Position numbers and translations under genes: made by a program. A stretch of DNA of 64,000 nucleotides from Veillonella criceti (GTDB taxonomy: Bacteria > Bacillota > Negativicutes > Veillonellales > Veillonellaceae), in NCBI RefSeq assembly GCF_900460315.1, contig NZ_UHIO01000001.1:1641501-1705500 (forward strand), in the 5' to 3' direction. This document shows positions 37,462-61,962 of the stretch, piece by piece; the stretch's first letter is position 1, and each line of letters begins with the position of its first letter. Below the pieces are notes generated by a model. The model was not told where the DNA came from. It was given only the letters and a program-made list of their open reading frames with translations, and ran no database searches.

Positions 37462-38910
37462 ATGCATAATCGTCATGGCATTATTGGCAAGTCTGTTATT
37501 GATTCGGTTCGTCGTTCATTACAACATAAATATGCAGAGGATCGTCACATTCAGCAGATGATTGAAGAGCTGGATGCAGCTGATGATTTAACATATGAGG
37601 AATTACATATTACAAAGCAAGCCTACGAAGAAGTAAAGTCGCGCTTGTTTTATACAGCCTTATTAGATAGTTTATGGCAGGAAATTGGTGAAACACAAGA
37701 TTTGTTAGCACAACTTCATGTATATGACTCGTTGGAAGAAGAGTTTCAGAGTCAAGGTGAAGAGTTGACGAATGAAGAATTGGCTATTGATCAAGTTGAT
37801 TTGGCAGATGTCGATGTGTCGGAACGTCCTTTAGCGGTACGGCAAACGAGTGCTATTGCGGAACGCCAACGTGGTACTGTAACAGCTAGGCAAGAGGGTG
37901 CTGTAGTGGCCCGCCCTGATGGTGAGGTAGTGAGTCGTACAGAGGGGCCATTGGTTAATGCTGTTGACTCCATAGCCAATGAAACGAAGCCTAACTTAAC
38001 TAATTCTAAGTCGGCTACTTCGGGAGTTACTGCAACAGGACAGACTCGGGATACAGAAGTTCCTTGGGCTCCTTTAACGCAAGGAACTTCTGAAACGAAT
38101 GTTTTGGCCGAAGAAAATTCAGCGGTAGCTATGAATGCGGTGTTGAATACAAAGGCGGCTATTGCCAGTTCAGCAGCTGATTCTGAAACGACTGTGCCAG
38201 CAGCGATTAAAGGAGAAACAGCACTTAAAGGGGAAACTGTACCTAAAGGGGAAGCTCAAGCTGTAGAACGAGAGGATGATAGGGACGCTGATGAATTTCC
38301 AACAGGTGAAATCTTTTTACAAGATATTTTCAATATGTTAAGCAAGGGTCTGACTAAAGGCGATGAAAGTCAACTTACCGTAGAAGATCTTATGCAGCAT
38401 ACCGAATGGAAAGAATTCAAAAAATTAGCAAAACAAGCTAAAAAATCGATTAAAAAAGCACAAAAAACGGCTAAAAAAGAAGCTAAGAAATTAGCAAAAG
38501 AGGCTAAAAAAGAAAGTAAAAAGGCATTAAAAAAGGCAAAACATACTAAGCAGGATGTAGAGTCTTTGAGTGAAGAATGGTATCAAGATTTTGAAACTGC
38601 CAGTGGCACGTTGACGAAAGAAGCGCAACAGAAAAAGGAAAAAATAAAAAACAAAGCTTGTGATAACTTAGACGCGACAAAGGAAAAGGCTGCTGATATA
38701 TTAGCTAAAGCTGATGAAAAAAAGAGTGACGTTGTGGCTAAAGCTAATGAAACTGCCAGTCAAGTTATGGAACAAGCTAAATCAACCGTGCAAACCGTAT
38801 CAGAAAAAGCCAGTGATGTGAAGGATACGATGCAAGATTTGGGCCGTTCAGCAGTGCTTCAAGTATTAGATATTGTAGAGTCAGCGATTCAAAAAAAGCC
38901 AAAAAAGTAG
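37462..38910 (+). CDS. Lys/Ala-rich coiled-coil protein of unknown function (zero-frame product)
   Basis: I do not recognise a family. Residues 1-110 are a charged helical domain. About 115-275 is Thr/Glu/Ala-rich low complexity. Residues 315-370 are an extraordinary run of KK/KA repeats (KEAKKLAKEAKKESKKALKK), followed by LEA- or apolipoprotein-like 11-residue amphipathic helices to the end. The combination suggests nucleic-acid or membrane binding, but this is inference. The zero frame ends at a TAG directly after the second of two A-AAA-AAG heptamers; the -1 frame continues for 59 codons into a Cys-rich tail (separate entry). AGGAG lies upstream at 37450. Confidence 0.65.
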   Translation: MHNRHGIIGKSVIDSVRRSLQHKYAEDRHIQQMIEELDAADDLTYEELHITKQAYEEVKSRLFYTALLDSLWQEIGETQDLLAQLHVYDSLEEEFQSQGEELTNEELAIDQVDLADVDVSERPLAVRQTSAIAERQRGTVTARQEGAVVARPDGEVVSRTEGPLVNAVDSIANETKPNLTNSKSATSGVTATGQTRDTEVPWAPLTQGTSETNVLAEENSAVAMNAVLNTKAAIASSAADSETTVPAAIKGETALKGETVPKGEAQAVEREDDRDADEFPTGEIFLQDIFNMLSKGLTKGDESQLTVEDLMQHTEWKEFKKLAKQAKKSIKKAQKTAKKEAKKLAKEAKKESKKALKKAKHTKQDVESLSEEWYQDFETASGTLTKEAQQKKEKIKNKACDNLDATKEKAADILAKADEKKSDVVAKANETASQVMEQAKSTVQTVSEKASDVKDTMQDLGRSAVLQVLDIVESAIQKKPKK

Positions 38911-39086
38911 CTAACCTTGGTGGATCTAATAAACATCACACTGAATCGACCAAGGGAGATTCTTTAGATGCCCCGTTGACTGATAAAAACGGTCGTTGTC
39001 AGGTGTGCGGTAATCATTGTAGACCTATTAGAAAAAATTGTAAAAAACGGCAACGCGCATTGGAAAAACGGGGATATACAGATTGA
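38892..39086 (+). CDS. Candidate -1 frameshift extension with four-cysteine (zinc ribbon-like) tail
   Basis: Slippery heptamers A-AAA-AAG occur at 38892-38898 and 38901-38907, both in the zero-frame phase that permits -1 slippage, and the second abuts the TAG stop. Seven bases later CCTTGGT (38915-38921) can pair with ACCAAGG (38949-38955). The -1 frame is open from 38907 to a TGA at 39084-39086, adding 59 residues with CQVCGNHC and a later Cys (C-x2-C-x3-C-x6-C) plus basic residues. Slippage would make a 541-residue protein. A simple indel in an A run is the alternative. Confidence 0.65.
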   Translation, partial: KKAKKVANLGGSNKHHTESTKGDSLDAPLTDKNGRCQVCGNHCRPIRKNCKKRQRALEKRGYTD

Positions 39087-39347: not shown

Positions 39348-40754
39348 GGCTCTTTGTCAAATTTTGGGGCGCTAAAGAGATTATGCACTCTTGGAAAGGA
39401 CATGCGACACAGTTGTTGCGTGTCCTTTTTTAGCATTAATGAATAAAATCCGGTTACGAAATCGTTCAAAGTTTTGTAAACCAAACGAACACCGCTTTAG
39501 TACTTTTATTTTGTTGTTACAACCTTCTGTAAAGCCATTGGAATAGGGTAATGTTAAGGCATTAATAATTTCGGTTCTCCAAAATGTAAATGTTTTTAAG
39601 AGTGATTGAAACTCAGGTAATTCAGAAGCCTCAACTAAGGATAGCCATTGATCAATGGCCCATTGAATATTTTCTTTATCTTTGAATTTTAAAACATGAG
39701 AAAAGGATTGTTTTAGTGTATAGGCACGATGTAATCGGGGCGAATAATGAAACATATCCATAAGCTTAGTGAACTCTTTGTCTGTTAATGATTCAAAGCG
39801 TTTAGTTAATACTCGTTTATTGGCTTTAAAGGTACGACTTACATTGCATAATAGATTTTGCTCTACTTTGCGTACCCGTTCTAAGGCAAAGGTAACTAGC
39901 CGTATTAAGTGAAATCTATCAACTACAATTTCAGCTTGAGGGAACCAAGTTTTCATAACCGAACGAAATTGAAGTGACATATCCATTGTGATGTATTTTA
40001 CATTATTTCGTATATATCTAGGGAATTGAGCAAAGTATTTCGCTAGTTCCGTAGTATCTCGTTTAGGCAGAATATCTAGTATTTTATGCGTTTCTGGATC
40101 AGTAAGAATGACTTGGTATTTTTGACCAGCTGCATTGCCTTTGAATTCATCAATAGATAGTACAGGTGGTAGTGTTGAGGGGCGACTATAGTTAATTTCG
40201 TTAAAGACTCTTAGTACTTGGTTTACGCTTACATGGCAATGCTTAGCCACAGCTTTGTAAGATGTTACTTCAGAGAGTTGTTGACATATTACTTCACGAA
40301 GTCTTGGGGTTGTTCTAAGATAGCGAGAAGAAAACTCTGTTTTTTCATTGAAAGTGCGTCCGCACGTGCATATATAACGACGTTGACGATATAAGAGAAG
40401 AATGGTTTTTTCATTGGTTGTAGTATGCTGAATTTTTCGGTTAGTATAGCCTTTTATTCGTGTAGTTTGTGAATGGCAATTAGGGCATCTATGAGGACGT
40501 ACAGGACTTTCTACGTAAAGTAAGTATTCTGAGCTAGTTTCACGCATATTTTTTATATATTCTGCTTTGATTCCGAGTAAATTTCCTATATAATTAAGTG
40601 TAGACATATTGAGTAAACATCCTTTCATAATGGTTTCGTCGCTTTTATTGTAACGGATTTTATTCAATATGTCTTTTTTTATATAAAAAAGTAGGCGCCA
40701 AGAGGACACGCAGTTTGCGTTTCTCTTTAGCGCCCCAAAATAAATTATAGAACC
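39348..40754 (-). mobile_element. Intact ISL3-family insertion sequence (1407 bp)
   Basis: Both ends begin GG-T-TCT and share a perfect 20-bp inner inverted repeat ATTTTGGGGCGCTAAAGAGA (39361-39380, reverse complement at 40722-40741). The outer 13 bases are only partly conserved. A single intact transposase gene fills it. Matching 8-bp flanks indicate a simple, probably recent transposition into the gap between the frameshift gene and the first adhesin. Confidence 0.93.
39381..40607 (-). CDS. ISL3-family transposase
   Basis: DDE transposase of about 408 residues. The N-terminal zinc finger CPNCHSQTTRIKGY and CTCGRTF is followed by a helix-turn-helix and the DDE domain: Asp in LSIDEFKG, Asp in VVDRFHL and Glu in SNGFTEGCNNKIKVLKR. 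I start at ATG 40607 (MSTLNYIGNLLGIK), which fits the family; the frame stays open 34 codons further upstream without a ribosome binding site. The frame is uninterrupted, so the element should be active. Confidence 0.93.
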   Translation of the reverse strand: MSTLNYIGNLLGIKAEYIKNMRETSSEYLLYVESPVRPHRCPNCHSQTTRIKGYTNRKIQHTTTNEKTILLLYRQRRYICTCGRTFNEKTEFSSRYLRTTPRLREVICQQLSEVTSYKAVAKHCHVSVNQVLRVFNEINYSRPSTLPPVLSIDEFKGNAAGQKYQVILTDPETHKILDILPKRDTTELAKYFAQFPRYIRNNVKYITMDMSLQFRSVMKTWFPQAEIVVDRFHLIRLVTFALERVRKVEQNLLCNVSRTFKANKRVLTKRFESLTDKEFTKLMDMFHYSPRLHRAYTLKQSFSHVLKFKDKENIQWAIDQWLSLVEASELPEFQSLLKTFTFWRTEIINALTLPYSNGFTEGCNNKIKVLKRCSFGLQNFERFRNRILFINAKKGHATTVSHVLSKSA

Positions 40755-41059: not shown

Positions 41060-44059
41060 ATGAAACAAAAGCGGGCGTTAAGTGTGTTAGTATTAGCTGC
41101 TATTTCAGTATCGGCAGGTGTTGTACAAGGGGCTGAAACAGGGGCTAAATTTATAGGAATAGGTCCAACGAATCCAGAAGTGACTACAGGGAGTAATATT
41201 GATGGAAGCGGGGCAACAGGAGCTAATGCGTTGGCCATTGGAGTAGCTGCACAGGCTAAAGCAATTAATGGCACGGCTATTGGAGTAAACGCACAGGCTG
41301 ATACAACGAATGCTACGGCTATTGGTAACGGGGCTAAGGTAAATAATGAGGGAGGCAGTGCTATTGGCGGGATTGCTATTGGTACGAATGCTCACTCTCA
41401 TAATATGAGTAATGGGAATCATGAGAGTATTATTACATTTGGACGTGATAGGACAGCCCTTACTGGTGGGATTGCTATTGGCCAAGATACACATGCGCGG
41501 ATTGGTAATGTAGAGCTAGGCAATCGAGATTATCGTGGCCAGATTGGTGATTTTGATTTTTCAGCAACGGATGGAAAAATTGGTGGTACCGCAATTGCTA
41601 ATAGTGGTAAATTAAAGAATTCTGATGTAACGACTGGTGTAGGCTCTACCACCGTTGGTGACAATTCATTTAATATGGGGAATTTTTCGAGTATTAATGG
41701 TTCTTATAATGTAATATCAAAAGCGTATGATAAACCAACGGCATCTTGGGTAGGAAATCAGCTAACCCGTGGTATGAATGCTCTTCATAATGCAGGGGCC
41801 GCCATTCAAGGCTTTGGGTCTAGTATTAGTGGCTCTTTAAATAGTATTGAAGGCAATGAACCATTAAATGCCAATATATCTTCTTTGCTTGGCGTTGCTA
41901 GTGATCCTGTAAATGGTCTTATGTATTCGGGAACAGCTTCTAATATTGTAGGTACAGCCAACCGCATTAGTAAAAGTAATGGGGCTTTAATTTTTGGCAC
42001 GGGCAACGAAATTACTAATTCGTATATTACACCAAATAGTCCAATTATTATGGACTCTTTGTCTACGAACGTTCCCTTTTTGGGTACGTTATCATTAAAA
42101 CCAACGGTTGCCAGTAATTCAATTAAAGAATTAGCTGACACACTTCGTAAGTATTCACAAGACAATCGGATGGGCTCAGTCGGGATTATGGGTGGTGCTA
42201 ATAAAGCTGATTATGCCTTATTTTCTACTATTTCCGGGGTAGGGAATACATTGACTGGTGCTGGCGCGACTAACAATGTTAATTTAAATTCAGGAAATAC
42301 TAAATTAGCTAATGTTATTGATGGAAATACATTTGCTACTTTTAATGCAATAACTGGTTATGAGAATACGGGTAAAGTTGTCTCTCATAGTTATATTAAT
42401 GGTTCTTACAATAACCTTGAAAATGCAACAGAAAATATTGTTATAGGTAATAACCAAACACTTAAAGGGACAGAAGGCTCAAAAGCTAAGGGGAATATTA
42501 TATTAGGTTTTAGAGATAAGAAAGATGAGACAGCCTTGAAAAATACACTGTTGAATGCAGTGGCTATAGGCAATGATAGTTCTATTGCTGGAGATAATGC
42601 TATTGCCATTGGCTATAAGGCAAGTAGTGGTGTAGAGAATGGGGTAGCTTTAGGTTCACAAGCTGTAGCAGGAACTGGTGCGGGTATATCTGGCTATGAT
42701 CCAGTTAAAAATCAAGCATCTACTGAAACAGATAAAATTTGGAAGTCCACTTTAGGGGCTGTATCTGTAGGGAATGATGCTAATACGCGTCAAATCACTA
42801 ATTTAGCAGCTGGTATGGCTCCAACTGACGCAGTTAATGTGGCCCAATTACAAGCTGTTAGTGGCATGATTGTGAAGCCTACTATTTCTATTCTTAGTAA
42901 AGGTAGAAAAAGTGATACTACCTATGTAGGTGGAAGTGCAGTTGTGACAAATCACGATGTCAATGGGATGATATTTGACTTTGGCGATGGTTTATATGCG
43001 GAAAAGCAGAAAAATACTGATGGCAAAGATGTTATTTTAGTAGGTGTTGATAAAAACGTTATTAAGCCAGGTGTTGATGGAGCTCCTGGCACTCCTGGTA
43101 TTCCAGGCAAAGATGGAACTGTAGTAGAAGTATCAAAAAATGAAGAAACTGGAGAAACTACTATTACCACTAATCCGGATACGGCTGAGAAAAATTCTGT
43201 CGTTGTAAAAGATGGAAAAAATGGAAAAGACGGCATAGATGGCAAAGATGGTGTATTTGACTTCTCCATCATAGCAGATAAAACAGTAACACCAATCACT
43301 GTGGCAAAAGATAGTCCTCTAGTTGAAGTGCATGGGGATAGTAACATTCAGACAATCGCTAATGGTAATACGTTAACCGTTAGTCTTAATAAGGACATAA
43401 CAGTTAATTCAGTGACAACAAAGACAATACAGGCAGAATCTTACAAAGTAGGAGATGCCACGTATATTAATGAACAAGGTCTTAATGCTAATAATAAGGT
43501 AATTAAGAATGTAGCGGCTGGAGAAGATATGACTGATGCGGCGAATGTAGGACAGTTACGTGAATTAAATAATACAGTGAGCCAGTCTATTCACAAACTG
43601 CAAAAAGATAGCAACCGTGCTGATGCGATGGGGGCGGCGTTAGCAGCTCTTAGTCCACTTCAGTATGACCCACTAGAGCCGACACAAATTATGGCAGGTT
43701 ATGGCTATTATGGTGGTGAAAATGCGTTTGCGTTAGGTCTTGCTCATTATAAGCATGAATCCTTGTTATTCCGTGCAGGGGTAGCTATGAATGGTGGCAA
43801 TAGTAAGTTAATGGCTAATGCAGGGGTAACTTGGAAGTTTGGGGATAGCAAAAAGGAACGAGCGCTTGTAGAAGAATATCGCCAAGGCCCAATTTCTTCT
43901 AGTTATGTATTACAAGATAAATTGGCAATCTTAGAAGCTGAAAATATTCAGATAAAAGCAATGCATGAAAAATTAGTAGCTGATTATTCACAATTAGAAA
44001 AAGATAATGCGGAAATGAAAGCTAAAATTGACGTGTTAATGCAACGTATGGGGCTATAA
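41060..44059 (+). CDS. Trimeric autotransporter adhesin with post-anchor coiled coil
   Basis: A 999-residue type Vc surface protein. Order: signal peptide (1-24, cleavage near VQGAE); a YadA-like head made of short repeats of the ANALAIGVAAQA type (30-610); a neck RQITNLAAGMAPTDAVNVAQLQ near 580-600; collagen-like Gly-X-Y blocks (GAPGTPGIPGKDG near 673 and NGKDGIDGKDG near 720); and a second neck before a YadA-like anchor (about 835-932, ending NAGVTWKFG). Unusually, about 65 residues follow the anchor, including a heptad coiled coil (LAILEAENIQIKAMHEKL). It probably mediates adhesion or coaggregation. It is transcribed in tandem with the next adhesin. Confidence 0.9.
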   Translation: MKQKRALSVLVLAAISVSAGVVQGAETGAKFIGIGPTNPEVTTGSNIDGSGATGANALAIGVAAQAKAINGTAIGVNAQADTTNATAIGNGAKVNNEGGSAIGGIAIGTNAHSHNMSNGNHESIITFGRDRTALTGGIAIGQDTHARIGNVELGNRDYRGQIGDFDFSATDGKIGGTAIANSGKLKNSDVTTGVGSTTVGDNSFNMGNFSSINGSYNVISKAYDKPTASWVGNQLTRGMNALHNAGAAIQGFGSSISGSLNSIEGNEPLNANISSLLGVASDPVNGLMYSGTASNIVGTANRISKSNGALIFGTGNEITNSYITPNSPIIMDSLSTNVPFLGTLSLKPTVASNSIKELADTLRKYSQDNRMGSVGIMGGANKADYALFSTISGVGNTLTGAGATNNVNLNSGNTKLANVIDGNTFATFNAITGYENTGKVVSHSYINGSYNNLENATENIVIGNNQTLKGTEGSKAKGNIILGFRDKKDETALKNTLLNAVAIGNDSSIAGDNAIAIGYKASSGVENGVALGSQAVAGTGAGISGYDPVKNQASTETDKIWKSTLGAVSVGNDANTRQITNLAAGMAPTDAVNVAQLQAVSGMIVKPTISILSKGRKSDTTYVGGSAVVTNHDVNGMIFDFGDGLYAEKQKNTDGKDVILVGVDKNVIKPGVDGAPGTPGIPGKDGTVVEVSKNEETGETTITTNPDTAEKNSVVVKDGKNGKDGIDGKDGVFDFSIIADKTVTPITVAKDSPLVEVHGDSNIQTIANGNTLTVSLNKDITVNSVTTKTIQAESYKVGDATYINEQGLNANNKVIKNVAAGEDMTDAANVGQLRELNNTVSQSIHKLQKDSNRADAMGAALAALSPLQYDPLEPTQIMAGYGYYGGENAFALGLAHYKHESLLFRAGVAMNGGNSKLMANAGVTWKFGDSKKERALVEEYRQGPISSSYVLQDKLAILEAENIQIKAMHEKLVADYSQLEKDNAEMKAKIDVLMQRMGL
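43241..43920 (+). repeat. 680-bp segment shared with the next adhesin (copy 1)
   Basis: Nearly identical to 46589-47268; I found only scattered single-base differences at its 5' end (for example GAC/GAT at 43258-43260 and ATCACT/ATAACT). It encodes the stalk end, neck and anchor. Confidence 0.95.
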
Positions 44060-60612: not shown

Positions 60613-61962
60613 TTACTTTTTTACCATATGGACGGTGTAACCATTGGTGTGGATATTGCTATTTGAACTATCTTCATTGTTCAGTTCTGTTAAATAGGAA
60701 TCGGCCGTTACATTCCAAATGGAATTTTTGCTGAGGGTGAGGCTTGCCTTTTTCGCTGTATTATTAGGGTTAATTGCTCCCGTCAATGTAGAACCCTGAT
60801 TTAGCTTAATCGTTACAGAGCTGATACTATCAGCTTTAATATGACCGTTGAGAGTTTGTTTATTAGCTAAAAGTTTAACTTGGCCACCATTTTTTCCATT
60901 GCGTCCCCATTCACTAGCTTTGGCCTCTAAAATAGTGGTGCTATGTGGCGCTTGTAACTCTACTTGTTGGAGCTTAATTTCTCCTTTTGTGTTGGCTACG
61001 GTGAAAAAGGGTGTTCGTCCAGTGTTTCTAAGCTGGCTATTTTGTATGGTGAGCTGTGTTGTGCCCTCATCGGCGGTATTAAGGTCACTAAAGTATAAGG
61101 TGAAACCATCGGTACCTGAGAGATTAGCATTAGTAAGGTGCACATTGGTAGTGCCTTCTAGCTGACCTAGGGCACTGTGACGGGCTTCCCCGGTTACAGT
61201 GATTAATTTCATAGTTCCTGTAGCTGACATAAGAGGGCTATTAAAACCGTCTGTAGTAAGTTGGAGATTGGTGGCGGTTAACTCGCTTTTTGTCTGACTG
61301 CCTATTACTATGGCAGGACTACGGTCGCCTTGAGTACTAATCGCACTTTGTTTTAACGTCGCTTGTGCGCCATAAGTAAGGGAGAGTCCTGGTGAAACGG
61401 CGCCATTTGTTCTTAACGTCACACCATTAGCCTGCACAGCTACACCTTTACCACTACCTACTAACGCAGCGGCACCTCGGCCTTGCGTGCGTATCGTGCT
61501 GTTAGTCAATGTGGCTTTGCTATACGGTGCTACTAGAAGGGCCGCATTTTGACCACGCCAGAGGGCGAGGCCTTCACTATCTGCGTTACCCGTTTTAGAA
61601 AGGTTGGCATTTTTTAATTTAGCATGGCCTGTTTTTTGTACGAGAATGACATTTTCATTATCTTTCGTATTGGTTAGGCTCTTTTTAAAAGTTTTCGTGT
61701 CGTTGACTATTTTAGTTGCTTTAAATTTATAGTTCTTGTCAATTTTTTTGCCTTTTTTAAAATCATCATCGGAATCACTGACGAGGCCTAAGAGCTTGCC
61801 TGCTACTTTAATTGGATTAATCGTAGGCATATCGGGCAAGACCTTGGAGGCTACATAGGCTGTGACTGGATCGGCTGCCTGGGCAGGGGCCGTAGTATAT
61901 ATGGTGAACGTAGTGCCAAGAAGGGCACTCGCTAGAAGACGGGTGAGGGCCTTGTGGTTCAT
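60613..61962 (-). CDS. Secreted beta-helix-like protein (autotransporter passenger without barrel)
   Basis: A 449-residue exported protein: signal peptide with cleavage near APAQAA (residue 29), a short linker, then from about residue 100 repeated short strands separated by polar turns (for example ATLTNSTIRTQGRG and ATLKQSAISTQGDRS) typical of right-handed beta-helices. The tail SLTLSKNSIWNVTADSYLTEL matches the end of pertactin-like passenger domains. No C-terminal beta-barrel is present and the protein ends MVKK, so it cannot self-insert; it may be surface-bound or periplasmic. No family name can be assigned securely. It is read on the minus strand, 150 bases before the ABC genes. Confidence 0.6.
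   Translation of the reverse strand: MNHKALTRLLASALLGTTFTIYTTAPAQAADPVTAYVASKVLPDMPTINPIKVAGKLLGLVSDSDDDFKKGKKIDKNYKFKATKIVNDTKTFKKSLTNTKDNENVILVQKTGHAKLKNANLSKTGNADSEGLALWRGQNAALLVAPYSKATLTNSTIRTQGRGAAALVGSGKGVAVQANGVTLRTNGAVSPGLSLTYGAQATLKQSAISTQGDRSPAIVIGSQTKSELTATNLQLTTDGFNSPLMSATGTMKLITVTGEARHSALGQLEGTTNVHLTNANLSGTDGFTLYFSDLNTADEGTTQLTIQNSQLRNTGRTPFFTVANTKGEIKLQQVELQAPHSTTILEAKASEWGRNGKNGGQVKLLANKQTLNGHIKADSISSVTIKLNQGSTLTGAINPNNTAKKASLTLSKNSIWNVTADSYLTELNNEDSSNSNIHTNGYTVHMVKK

Follow-up and report, generated by a model that had tools for sequence, protein, structure and literature searches.

A likely programmed −1 ribosomal frameshift that would add a four-cysteine tail to a lysine-rich protein of the Veillonellaceae

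A lysine-rich gene and its slippery end

On the forward strand of the window, by which we mean the whole stretch of 64,000 nucleotides of Veillonella criceti DNA that was analysed, an open reading frame (ORF) at positions 37462–38910 ending in TAG encodes a protein of 482 residues. It comprises an N-terminal helical hairpin, a variable middle, and a lysine-rich C-terminal part, the latter with amphipathic repeats in some species. The hairpin is predicted for residues ~10–99 (helices 10–39 and 45–99; pLDDT 86.5). In three relatives (G001, G002, and G006), the frame-0 protein is enlarged by amphipathic repeats of the KAEELKDQA/DKVDELADKA type, the copy number of which differs between species. 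Neither Pfam nor NCBIfam holds a family that matches the main protein above cut-off, and searches of the PDB by sequence and by fold gave no credible match (best fold E 0.59), the N-terminal domain included. A match to PHROG tape-measure proteins was rejected, as it reflects the coiled, Ala/Lys-rich composition.

The gene is single copy in its own genome (one match), and a profile of the N-terminal domain detected it in 21 of 28 Veillonellaceae genomes and in three of the four genera. Outside this family, no credible relative was found with the same profile in 380 genomes of the class; single matches at E 5e-4 and 1e-3 were taken as chance. The gene family, as yet unnamed, appears to be new. 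Genomic context gives no function, because the neighbours differ between genera: upstream lies a LarA-like gene here vs a methyltransferase-like ORF in Veillonella proper (genus g4 of the searches, an assignment that is inferred). Beyond the tail described below, the reverse strand carries an ISL3-family transposase (Pfam DDE_Tnp_ISL3; 39381–40709), which is a separate element, and a YadA-like trimeric autotransporter adhesin, matched in its head, stalk, and anchor, lies at 41060–44059 of the forward strand.

The 3′ end of the ORF reads CAA AAA AAG CCA AAA AAG TAG and contains two in-phase A_AAA_AAG heptamers 9 nt apart, the first at 38892–38898 and the second at 38901–38907, where it adjoins the TAG stop codon (38908–38910; TAG or TAA among relatives). 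From 38907 onwards, the −1 frame runs without a stop for 59 codons (38907–39083) before a TGA at 39084–39086; the encoded extension contains CQVCGNHCRPIRKNC and combines basic residues with four cysteines spaced C-x2-C-x3-C-x6-C. A slip at either heptamer would yield 541 residues, the two products differing by one junction residue (P or A). After a 7-nt spacer, CCTTGGT (38915–38921) can pair with ACCAAGG (38949–38955) across a 27-nt loop, and this stem-loop likely is the frameshift stimulator in the window. All of these elements had been called in the original prediction, whose description of the site holds: the heptamers are exact at base level, the coordinates of the stem and the 59-codon extension with its cysteine pattern and basic residues were confirmed, and the proposed sizes of 482 and 541 residues match the frame-0 ORF and the computed slip product.

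Across the 41 ORFs of the window with at least 150 residues (16,733 codons), 11 in-phase A_AAA_AAR heptamers occur, and the present gene is the sole ORF that has one at most six codons from the stop together with a −1 tail of at least 33 residues. The background for this frequency is the 64-kb window, not the whole genome; an open −1 run of 59 codons has, taken alone, a probability of ~0.015 from base composition. Another ORF of ~449 codons (about 60616–61962, reverse strand) also carries A_AAA_AAR at most six codons from its stop, with a −1 extension of merely 21 residues. Decisive, within what sequence data can offer, is conservation and not the statistics of the window.

Conservation of both frames and selection on the tail

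The gene-bearing species number 21, and 18 of them share a frame-0 stop, an in-phase A_AAA_AAG or A_AAA_AAA at most five codons away, and a −1 tail of 33–123 residues with four cysteines; in each of these 18 species, an in-phase X_XXY_YYZ heptamer lies inside the overlap of the 0 and −1 frames. Conservation of both frames, the heptamers, and the stem in orthologues had been named beforehand as what would argue for programming. In the window's genus, the whole set is kept in six of seven species: AAA AAG or AAA AAA is directly followed by TAG or TAA, a spacer, the CCTTGGT/CCAAGG stem, and the −1 tail. The second heptamer position is A_AAA_AAR in all six tail-bearing species, while the first heptamer is present in G003 and G005 too. 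The tail was detected by similarity in six of the seven species (E 2e-14 or better) and features the invariant GRCQVC..N.C.P....CKKRQRAL. Veillonella proper keeps the heptamer, the stop, and the four-cysteine −1 tail in 12 of 13 gene-bearing species, with the heptamer 0, 3, or 9 nt ahead of the stop and the cysteines spaced C-x2-C-x2-C-x4-C (e. g., DRGCGKCKRCKGPKCKKYP). The −1 tail of G003 (L033:2405-2773) has ~64 extra residues upstream of the cysteine cluster, including GGFIGELIHGVLAGIF, all in the −1 frame.

The three remaining species differ: in G004 and G042, a cysteine cluster is encoded in frame 0, G008 has no cluster, and the terminal heptamer is absent from all three, a coincidence of missing −1 tail and missing heptamer that was counted in favour of a programmed frameshift. 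The composition of the frame-0 protein is different as well, with 0 or 1 cysteine per 259–642 residues in the frameshift species vs five cysteines in each of the two in-frame species. Two observations had been put forward as potentially refuting, namely a tail in one continuous frame among orthologues and a sequencing error. Neither was judged to be met, as the two species with a frame-0 cluster are without the terminal heptamer and the slippery architecture is present in 18 separate genomes.

Genes this rich in lysine might acquire A-runs by accident, but the counts speak against that here. Within the last six codons of the 21 genes, 22 of 23 Lys-Lys pairs are in-phase A_AAA_AAR, vs just 19 of 329 pairs elsewhere (Fisher p 1e-22). 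This value is overstated because the species are related, and pooled p-values are accordingly not independent; if only six lineages are counted, each at the elsewhere rate of 0.058, our estimate from the same numbers is ~4e-8. As a separate observation, the motif is scarce enough at the non-terminal pairs of the 21 species to look as if avoided.

Codon alignments in the −1 frame gave dN < dS for the tail in nearly all diverged pairs, for example, dN 0.29/dS 1.45 (G000–G005), 0.027/0.24 (G001–G002), and 0.034/0.20 (G009–G020). Third positions of the −1 frame are the most variable, with differences at codon positions 1/2/3 of 229/185/399 in the window's genus and 559/585/1006 in Veillonella proper (overlapping pairs, and hence descriptive). 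A very close pair (G011–G019) with four nonsynonymous and no synonymous tail changes is uninformative. Judged by these alignments, the four-cysteine −1 tail is under purifying selection. This bears directly on the notion of a neutral relic, according to which an old frameshift mutation or a sequencing error interrupted a once-continuous gene and left a non-functional tail. Homopolymer runs are error-prone, and the frame-0 cysteine clusters of G004 and G042 would suit such a history; however, an architecture common to 18 independent genomes is not a sequencing error, dN remains below dS over large divergence, and heptamer, stop, and stem persist. Sequence error or pseudogene was rejected on the first two of these grounds, and the relic is refuted in the main and scarcely credible.

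Two kinds of stimulator and the question of what slips

Known −1 frameshift sites have a structure 5–8 nt downstream and Shine–Dalgarno (SD)-like elements upstream (PMC4066793). In the window's genus, the stem is paired in all six tail-bearing species, with the 7-nt spacer exact. Its changes are two G-U/U-G wobbles (G003 and G005), and a flanking pair shows one two-sided change from G-C to A-U. Over the six species, 95.8% of the stem cells are paired as compared to at most 56% for slid versions, and folding z-scores range from −1.4 to −3.8. As five of the eight stem pairs are invariant, the proof by covariation is modest. No SD-like element was found at any of the six sites of this genus. For Veillonella proper, in turn, no shared downstream stem was found, the hairpins being lineage-specific and mostly weak by z-score; AGGA/GGAG lies upstream in the published distance range at nine of 12 sites, vs a background of 48 of 241 Lys-Lys pairs (20%). 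The other three sites (G013, G019, and G041) are without an SD-like match and have hairpins alone, of uneven strength. It thus seems that the stimulator differs between the two lineages, each kind being of a class that is active in bacteria (PMC4066793). The initial reading as a programmed −1 frameshift is supported by the conservation of both frames, the heptamers, and the stem among orthologues, with the restriction that the stem is conserved in one lineage only.

An A-run is found at every site, up to A9 in G013 and A8 in G006, and the dnaX homologue of the same genome tolerates a run of A10, which may raise the suspicion that RNA polymerase gains or loses As at the run, generating mixed mRNAs of which a part have the tail in frame. 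Such transcriptional slippage usually needs about nine As, although the length varies among organisms (PMC1088944). Most sites have A6–A7 and fall below this ~9-nt criterion, and the run is merely A6 in G000, G003, G005, G011, G017, G019, G040, and G043, the first three of which additionally have a nearby A7. Moreover, such slippage would not account for the heptamer being in phase, for a spacer of fixed length with its stem, or for the SD-like element, and we regard this explanation as improbable. The heptamer, the stop, the −1 coding tail, and the stem are established as conserved at the sequence level; that it is the ribosome and not RNA polymerase that slips is an inference, and the same applies to the efficiency and to the trans-frame product.

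The tail could also be a separate small protein, made by reinitiation or from an internal start codon near the frame-0 stop. An ATG, GTG, or TTG does occur in the tail frame of some species (G011, G017, G019, G022, G041, G005, and G000). In G009, G013, G015, G020, G021, G040, and G043, however, none precedes the first cysteine, so a separate start cannot make the tails of these seven unless it is non-standard. The starts in the remaining species are at no position common across lineages, and the conserved heptamer is not accounted for, which renders this scenario highly improbable. In the absence of expression data, the correct reading is very probably that this gene of the Veillonella group, which is chromosomal and not mobile, undergoes programmed −1 ribosomal frameshifting.

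Known systems, a possible role, and evolution

The mechanism is the classical one of the dnaX/IS type. The E. coli-type dnaX gene likewise is a cellular gene with A_AAA_AAG, an SD-like sequence and a hairpin as stimulators, and two isoforms. There is no sequence kinship, however, and the dnaX slip leads to a shorter product, whereas the slip considered here would lead past the stop and lengthen the product by a new Cys-rich tail. The dnaX homologue in the same genome (L074, G000:C1 about 1459425–1460489) has its A10 run near codon 700 of a 756-aa frame, where a −1 shift would add just 15–16 residues; it may be a slippage site or simply a tolerated run. In IS3/IS1 orfA/orfAB, A_AAA_AAG and a downstream structure similarly fuse an ORF to a −1 ORF, so that the fusion product is the longer one. 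Unlike these, the Veillonella gene is not mobile, and an IS-element frameshift gene was rejected because there is a single match in its own genome and no transposase domain.

The chromosomal genes csoS2 and copA also give two isoforms by −1 slipping, and copA is likewise concerned with metal handling; their slips yield shorter products, though, and the proteins are unrelated (PMC5009743). The GeneTack clusters include predicted longer products over a frame transition at A-rich heptamers (PMC3711429). Veillonella is not named in the main text of that paper, and an overlap is not excluded as its supplementary cluster list was not covered. With csoS2, copA, and many candidate clusters at hand, programmed shifting outside dnaX and mobile elements is less rare than originally assumed (PMC5009743, PMC4066793). 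No literature linking Veillonella with programmed ribosomal frameshifting was found in main texts, the supplementary lists of surveys not being covered. The gene appears to be a new case of a standard programmed −1 frameshift.

Most ribosomes would terminate at TAG or TAA and release the Lys-rich, nearly cysteine-free protein. On some ribosomes, the two Lys-tRNAs would slip one base back on A_AAA_AAG or A_AAA_AAA, aided by the downstream stem in the window's genus or by the upstream AGGA SD-like sequence in most of Veillonella proper, and bypass the stop in the −1 frame to add the basic tail of 33–123 residues with its four cysteines. The tail likely binds a metal such as zinc, which is inferred from its composition without binding data; AlphaFold modelled the tail with low confidence (pLDDT 62.6), and comparison with known zinc-binding families gave only Pfam HMBD at E 0.057 and a PDB match at E 0.56, neither above cut-off. 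The modelled N-terminal helical hairpin suggests oligomerisation, and both isoforms may hence co-assemble through it into mixed assemblies. By inference, the slip would determine the share of tailed subunits and so what proportion of the subunits bind metal in a basic protein that itself binds nucleic acid or a polyanion. That the slip is a regulated switch, responding, for example, to metal or redox state or to the translation speed of Lys codons, and that it sets the Cys4-tailed share in a basic assembly associated with the nucleoid or the envelope, possibly having evolved separately per lineage, is conceivable but rather unlikely.

In a tree of the N-terminal domain, the window's genus, together with G004, G008, and G042, is split from Veillonella proper with 100/100 support. 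Cysteine spacing differs between the two tail types, and so does the kind of stimulator, which makes a separate origin in the two lineages possible. The data leave undecided whether the frameshift arose twice or goes back to a common ancestor, with in-frame or absent clusters taking its place two or three times.

To our knowledge, well-supported programmed −1 frameshifts that lengthen the product of non-mobile bacterial genes are few. The present one would be preserved in two genera that are common commensals of humans and animals. The protein family is unannotated, and gene callers would overlook its conserved cysteine tail because it is out of frame. The 18 sites form a natural series that includes a stem vs an SD-like element, runs from A6 to A9, and stops 0 to 9 nt off, and, together with the species with a frame-0 cluster, may serve as a test bed for the gain and loss of frameshift signals.
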